The notes under the pieces were generated by a model. That model did no database searches. It saw only the letters and a list, made by a program, of their open reading frames with translations, and had not been told where the DNA came from. A stretch of DNA of 10,517 nucleotides from Candidatus Cloacimonadota bacterium (GTDB lineage: Bacteria; Cloacimonadota; Cloacimonadia; Cloacimonadales; TCS61): positions 1 through 10,517 of the forward strand of contig JASUTE010000034.1 in the NCBI GenBank assembly GCA_030445745.1, read 5' to 3'. Position numbers and translations under genes: made by a program. Shown piece after piece: positions 10,348 to 10,517 of this stretch (the first letter of the stretch is position 1; each line of letters opens with the position of its first letter).

Positions 10348-10375
10348 TAAAAAAGCCGATCCATCTGGGCCGGCT
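10348..10375 (-). terminator. Rho-independent terminator after the GIY-YIG/tRNA-like unit
   Basis: Minus-strand hairpin AGCCGG/TCGGCT extended by CC/GG after one mismatch, loop AGAT, then TTTTTT. It lies about 14 nt past the CCA of the tRNA-like segment and the same distance upstream of the outer-membrane gene's promoter, so it isolates the two units. Confidence 0.85.
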
Positions 10376-10381
10376 CTCTTT

Positions 10382-10517
10382 CTATAAATGGCGGGAGCGA
10401 CGGGACTCGAACTCGCGACCTCCTGCAATTAATTCCTCTAAAAATTTCCTACTTTTCTTCTTTTTGATTTGGTATTCTCGTTTAATAGCTTCAGATTTAG
10501 TTTCGTATTTTTCATAA
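10382..10517 (-). CDS. GIY-YIG nuclease domain protein, C-terminus (partial at window edge)
   Basis: GIY-YIG nucleases cut DNA. Only the last 44 codons are inside the window; the GIY and YIG strands lie beyond the right edge. The visible part, YEKYETKSEAIKREYQIKKK followed by SRKFLEELI, matches the typical end of the small (80-100 residue) UPF0213/YhbQ-like group, with the ETKSEAIKRE helix including the conserved catalytic Glu. In related proteins the chain ends around this LI. Here it continues AGGREFESRRSRHL, and these added residues are encoded by the tRNA-3'-half-like DNA at 10389-10425. The stop TAG follows two codons later. Whether the tail is translated in a functional protein is unknown. 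Domain assignment is firm despite the truncation. Confidence 0.8.
   Translation of the reverse strand, partial: YEKYETKSEAIKREYQIKKKKSRKFLEELIAGGREFESRRSRHL
10389..10425 (-). other. tRNA 3'-half-like sequence ending in CCA (no 5' half)
   Basis: Read on the minus strand, the segment has a variable-loop-like GAGGTC, the T arm GCGAG-TTCGAGT-CCCGT, the acceptor 3' strand CGCTCCC, discriminator G and CCA. One T-stem position is mismatched (A52 against C62); the rest pairs. The matching acceptor strand GGGAGCG, the D arm and the anticodon loop are absent: the upstream DNA is AT-rich GIY-YIG coding sequence. It is therefore a 3' fragment, not a working tRNA. This is what a recombinase attachment site or a captured tRNA end would look like. 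The parent tRNA cannot be named from this piece. Confidence 0.75.

Follow-up and report, generated by a model that had tools for sequence, protein, structure and literature searches.

The right end of the window (10,517 nt, the whole of contig C22 in a genome of 2.04 Mb and 38 contigs) raises the question of why a nuclease reading frame should run into the DNA of a tRNA gene. The 3' part of a GIY-YIG nuclease frame occupies positions 10385..10516 of the minus strand (44 codons in the window, including a 14-codon tail encoded by tRNA DNA). Translation of the window from 10516 on that strand gives YEKYETKSEAIKREYQIKKKKSRKFLEELIAGGREFESRRSRHL, with no stop before the TAG at 10384-10382 (minus strand), just beyond the tRNA 3' end. 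The tRNA segment (10389..10426, minus strand) spans the end of the anticodon arm, the variable loop, the T arm, the acceptor 3' strand, the discriminator and CCA, and is followed by an intrinsic terminator (10350..10388, minus strand). ARAGORN reports no tRNA in the window, as expected since only a tRNA half is present. A group I intron or intron-encoded endonuclease was rejected; no Rfam match was found in the window, and the functional tRNA is uninterrupted.

The preliminary description of the locus, an unbroken nuclease frame that enters a tRNA 3' half and then meets a terminator, is borne out both by the translation and by a second copy in the genome. Positions 10350-10426 match C23:9551-9627 over 77 nt with 99% identity (E = 8e-33 in a search of the 2.04-Mb genome), a match that is therefore not due to chance. 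The terminator is part of this repeat and also follows an intact tRNA-Asp(GTC) gene on C23 (C23:9512-9588), whose 3' end is identical to the segment in the window. The preliminary description had called for a search for an intact genomic tRNA sharing this segment and would have counted its absence as a refutation; the tRNA is there, and the shared stretch is 38 nt long, not 37.

The last 43 nt of C23 are identical to the first 43 nt of the window's minus strand (10475..10517), and from this overlap the two contigs very probably join. Extending the window rightward across the overlap, as had been proposed, makes the GIY-YIG assignment clear: the match to PF01541 is under the Pfam cut-off for the part in the window alone (E 0.066), while the joined fragment of C23 plus window scores 39.1 bits (E 9e-10; cut-off 22.6). 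The rest of the frame lies at the end of C23, up to L004:2444, and opens with GYTHNLELRL straight after an in-frame TAA. The inferred order across both contigs would be tRNA-Asp, terminator, Y1 transposase, 5'-truncated GIY-YIG gene, tRNA-Asp 3' copy and terminator. The transposase (REP-associated type, 178 aa; PF01797, 26.9 bits) separates the intact tRNA-Asp from the nuclease fragment; its gene (L004:1708-2244; C23:9707-10243) occupies the expected place of the nuclease start and is flanked on both sides by TTGACTATGTCAATTCGTGCATTGA repeats.

The nuclease frame has no start codon and is therefore dead; the N-terminal motif of the GIY-YIG active site is missing as well. We think it probable that the nuclease-plus-tRNA stretch represents the right end of a decayed tRNA-nuclease cassette and, judging from its sequence, this copy of the cassette is dead, having lost about 17 first codons next to the Y1 transposase. 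Intact cassettes in relatives measure ~340-400 bp and consist of a tRNA gene, a terminator, a GIY-YIG ORF and a copy of that tRNA truncated at its 5' end, in most cases with a second terminator after it; a hairpin takes the place of one arm of the tRNA copy. The hairpin typical of these copies is absent from the 38-nt copy in the window; the frame reads through the tRNA DNA because of this absence and because the gene is dead.

Within 147 related genomes, the closest GIY-YIG relatives lie mostly directly behind tRNA-Asp, and a sister group lies behind tRNA-Asn. Scanning 84,980 species genomes with an alignment of the family (A1) gave 281 relatives, of which the best 80 were kept; these 80 loci are those nearest to A1, not a random sample. 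They include Cloacimonadota, Bacteroidota, Ignavibacteriota, Fidelibacterota/Neomarinimicrobiota, Balneolota and others, with Aquimarina megaterium, Pontibacter ruber, Winogradskyella luteola and Fodinibius sediminis among the named isolates. Single records from Woesearchaeota and Myxococcota are metagenome bins and may reflect mis-binning. Of these best 80 loci (of 281), 68 have 260 nt or more of sequence upstream; an intact same-strand tRNA gene lies no more than 260 nt upstream of the nuclease in 51 of the 68 (median distance 48 nt), and on one side or the other in 57. The upstream tRNAs are mostly Asp, Gly, Ala and Arg, with Met and Pro also found. As a control, a different GIY-YIG family was taken from the same Pontibacter genomes: none of its 14 genes lies beside a tRNA.

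The earlier suggestions that this is a compact unit linked to the 3' end of a tRNA and that it belongs to a class are thus upheld by an arrangement that dozens of relatives in several phyla share. Chance association of a nuclease gene with a duplicated tRNA end in one genome would fit the dead fused frame of the window and its unconserved tail, but the same fixed geometry recurs in dozens of genomes, which refutes chance for the class and leaves it with next to no credibility here. The proposal that nucleases of this kind carry a recurrent tRNA-encoded protein tail did not survive the comparison. The frames of relatives mostly end before the tRNA copy or early in it, with tails (such as TY, NK, KK, AGGRPD and RN before the stop) that vary in length between two and about 25 residues and for the most part show no relation in sequence; among the matches listed for the 147 relatives, only the window's own frame matches through the end of the tail. 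The protein tail was accordingly rejected as a conserved feature. What is conserved is the order of the DNA, the intact upstream tRNA and the arm-replacing hairpin in the copy; the upstream tRNA and the hairpin escaped the preliminary description because neither is visible from the window.

The cassette ORFs (~80-90 codons) consist essentially of the GIY-YIG domain only, and a separate DNA-binding domain is not present in them. Y5, Y16, G18, R26 and E62 show no variation among 26 relatives, and a median dN/dS of 0.12 over 53 pairs indicates purifying selection on the nuclease. A predicted model (pLDDT 93) has a fold matching UPF0213, SLX1 and I-TevI. Among solved structures, those of UPF0213 proteins come nearest (1zg2, E 4e-11 by sequence and 3e-4 by fold; then 1ywl), followed by SLX1 and then I-TevI. 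On a nuclease tree of 78 columns, which is poorly resolved, tRNA type changes 21 times, against at least 48 changes in 200 shuffles, and is thus clustered (a few tRNA labels were hand-corrected from printed sequences before this count).

Relics of tRNA genes around the nuclease, detected by simple alignments, show a marked polarity. For 70 of the 83 nuclease copies with room for one, a downstream copy of the same tRNA scores above shuffles, in most cases no more than a few tens of nt away. The tRNA 3' end is preserved in 57 of 63 downstream relics and the 5' end in one; among upstream relics, 18 of 23 preserve the 5' end and one the 3' end. Three upstream candidates at Aquimarina-type Arg loci were rejected as relics, being the neighbouring tRNA-Pro, and with these discounted 15 of 20 keep the 5' end. 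This polarity looks like the repeated arrival of a complete tRNA plus nuclease inside an older tRNA gene, the older tRNA being left split on the outside. Four loci (L092, L095, L102, L166) have the reversed order, in which the nuclease follows the hairpin copy and precedes the intact tRNA. Tandem nuclease copies within one locus are usually near-identical, so local duplication occurs too.

Most tRNA copies have a hairpin in place of one arm, as a rule TCCCGA...TCGGGA. The position of 58 hairpins could be mapped: 22 of them substitute precisely for the 17-nt anticodon arm (Ala, Arg, Met, Pro, Val), and another 22 take up precisely 8 nt of the T arm (Asp, Gly). The class of arm tracks tRNA type: Ala loci that fall among the Asp nucleases show the anticodon-arm form, in a part of the tree with weak support. 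At Asn and initiator-Met loci the hairpin is a different one, which begins in the anticodon loop. Since ~10-20 nt of tRNA are kept to the left of the hairpin in downstream relics, the hairpin is not simply the end of an element. ARAGORN labels hairpin-swapped copies as Stop, Ser-GGA, Gly-TCC or '???' (L105, L114, L155, L199, L208), and public annotations may therefore hold spurious tRNA genes.

Palindromes of the form TCCCGA...TCGGGA are also scattered at many non-tRNA sites (genomes G001-G046, Pontibacter, L124-L138), and many of them lie away from tRNAs. The dispersed palindromes are enriched in the window's family, and their association with the cassette is not proven. The nuclease might have spread the palindrome through the genome, but this reading was set aside: Pontibacter carriers have a median of 4 palindromes vs 2 in non-carriers (p = 4e-5), a difference that falls to p = 0.06 when two per carrier, the cassette's own hairpins, are subtracted.

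Presence and absence at a single site are seen among relatives in both Pontibacter and Aquimarina. In Pontibacter, one genome (G147, L118) has a cassette behind tRNA-Ala, and another (G166, L193) has the same tRNA, terminator and downstream gene with no cassette between them; by our own reading of the alignment, the intergenic distances differ by about 361 bp. In the Pontibacter locus, a 73-nt direct repeat (99%) runs from the end of the tRNA's anticodon arm through the terminator into the nuclease start, and about 14 of 50 Pontibacter genomes hold a close copy of the cassette. At the tRNA-Pro/tRNA-Arg locus of Aquimarina, occupied (L075, L226, L235), empty (L231, L236, L239) and decayed (nuclease of L237 and L242) sites all occur. 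Three further Aquimarina genomes (G207, G230 and G233; L227, L228 and L229) have flanks 92-98% identical to those of A. megaterium, a tRNA-Arg of 87% identity and a changed spacer; two of them keep only the first ~36 nt of the nuclease, and the third lacks even that. By sequence comparison, this suggests that the tRNA itself may have been exchanged at the site.

A direct repeat of a tRNA 3' end, present in the cassettes, is also the classic att signature of integrative islands, and the locus could be read as the remnant of an integrase-type genomic island at a tRNA gene, with the 38-nt copy as attR and the nuclease as trapped cargo. Separate tRNA-Ala copies (positions 29-75) that lie 1-20 kb from the intact gene in Pontibacter agree with such a reading. 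The cassettes, however, are units of ~400 bp without an integrase in which the nuclease ORF stands alone between the repeats, and in the window's genome a Y1 transposase, again without an integrase, lies there. The same nuclease family directly follows tRNAs of many species in several phyla; moreover, upstream 5' relics and arm-swapped hairpins are unexpected from site-specific integration, and integrase-free insertions of ~360 bp at otherwise empty sites strain the island reading further, such that we regard it as quite unlikely. Ordinary-looking islands were seen in Pontibacter genomes such as G182, G205 and G165 between tRNA-Ala and a 3' copy 1-20 kb away, and in some such genomes a GIY-YIG gene or gene fragment lies at the distal tRNA-Ala copy.

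The closest known counterpart in arrangement is SegB, a free-standing GIY-YIG homing endonuclease encoded between the tRNA genes of phage T4 (PMC2988022). SegB cuts within tRNA genes at the motif RAWTSGAAC and drives tandem amplification of the tRNA-segB segment (PMC13096335); the reverse complement of this motif, GTTCSAWTY, reads in our view as the T-loop box of tRNAs, which would place it near the hairpin sites of the Asp and Gly copies. The cassette shares with SegB of phages T4/T6 a GIY-YIG catalytic domain, a gene beside tRNA genes and tandem tRNA-nuclease repeats. It differs in residing in bacterial chromosomes, in its lone domain of ~80 aa, in its single tRNA species per cassette, and in combining an intact tRNA with truncated, hairpin-swapped copies; a search for viral relatives of the cassette nuclease found none. 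As in free-standing homing endonucleases generally, the gene lies beside a conserved gene that would be its target, in this case presumably the tRNA.

Taken with the order, polarity and hairpin geometry, these likenesses lead us to favour, with fair but not high confidence, a homing cassette of the SegB kind that is specific to one tRNA gene and brings an intact tRNA of its own, a selfish element of the intronless-homing type. The nuclease would open the tRNA gene on a chromosome without the cassette, and repair from a cassette-bearing chromosome would install both the cassette and a complete tRNA, leaving the host with tRNA function. The old tRNA would be left as relics, with 5' pieces outside on the left and 3' pieces outside on the right, and insertion of a hairpin would disarm the displaced copies; as the hairpin occupies the former target arm, it would mark, and perhaps protect, the displaced copy. 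Repeated rounds would produce nested arrays. Amplification of tRNA genes to the benefit of the host, as SegB amplifies phage tRNA-Tyr and for example against tRNA-cutting defences, would suit the tandem arrays that are common among cassettes and has a precedent in the tRNA-segB repeats (PMC13096335). The extra tRNA copies are nevertheless disarmed and non-functional, and tRNA dosage is therefore normally not raised; we consider a host-serving role very unlikely.

Several points count against homing. One would expect the intact tRNA of the cassette to be a target as well, tRNA sequence is kept to the left of the hairpin in downstream relics, and the nuclease has no DNA-binding domain, its nearest solved relatives being UPF0213 and the structure-specific SLX1, not I-TevI or Seg. 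Known homing enzymes take their specificity from a separate DNA-binding domain. With a domain-only nuclease and a spared intact tRNA, a structure-directed or RNA-assisted mechanism is conceivable: the cassettes could form a separate class of mobile element, a domain-only GIY-YIG plus a whole tRNA gene, in which the hairpin-swapped piece, as DNA or RNA, is recognized or acts as a guide, and targeting is by a tRNA stem-loop. We hold this to be unlikely. A related idea, which we also judge unlikely, is that the nuclease transcript might end in a functional RNA, the hairpin-swapped tRNA piece, which would act with the nuclease as guide, template, decoy or regulator, a role that would suit the exact replacement of an arm, the conservation of relic 3' ends across phyla and the purifying selection on the nuclease. 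The same palindrome, however, is also found at unrelated sites, and the Asp and Gly relics lack the D arm and half of the anticodon arm; no common cloverleaf is therefore kept.

The homing-cassette reading can be set beside other known systems. UPF0213 and SLX1-type GIY-YIG proteins, the closest to the cassette nuclease in sequence and fold, are stand-alone cellular proteins that are not known to be tied to tRNA copies. Integrative islands at tRNA sites share the direct repeat and differ from the cassette in that it measures ~360 bp, has no integrase, and is accompanied by upstream 5' relics and hairpin-swapped arms. Some free-standing endonuclease genes of mitochondria duplicate the end of the host gene, as in Allomyces atp6/orf360, where the nuclease gene likewise travels with a partial copy of the gene that it invades; the cassette, by comparison, has a tRNA as its host gene and carries that gene whole, and hairpins are present in the displaced copies. 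Our search of open-access PubMed Central full texts returned SegB and mitochondrial cases and no description of the cassette arrangement itself.

We are thus probably dealing with a tiny, selfish DNA cassette, spread across many bacterial phyla, that pairs a small nuclease with a complete tRNA gene. If this is true, many phyla of the FCB group carry an overlooked parasite of tRNA genes that ranks among the smallest nuclease-driven elements, that extends intronless homing from phages to bacterial chromosomes, and that solves the problem of invading an essential gene by bringing a complete replacement tRNA. Such an element could help to explain tRNA-gene turnover, odd tRNA calls and tRNA fragments in annotations, and a hairpin that substitutes precisely for an anticodon arm poses a directly testable question about recognition by the nuclease.

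Other GIY-YIG genes were seen in settings of their own. The window's genome encodes a second one, ~115 nt past the tmRNA gene (L008:1034-1385 and 1501-1722, on contig C16), with no tmRNA copy downstream of it scoring above shuffles. Sister GIY-YIG genes also lie, apparently, inside a gene for a four-helix-bundle (S23-type) protein in L005, L034 and L041, at about position 1501 (about 379 in L034), with inverted ends, TGCCC(C/T)GTGTAAT...ATTACACAGGGCA.
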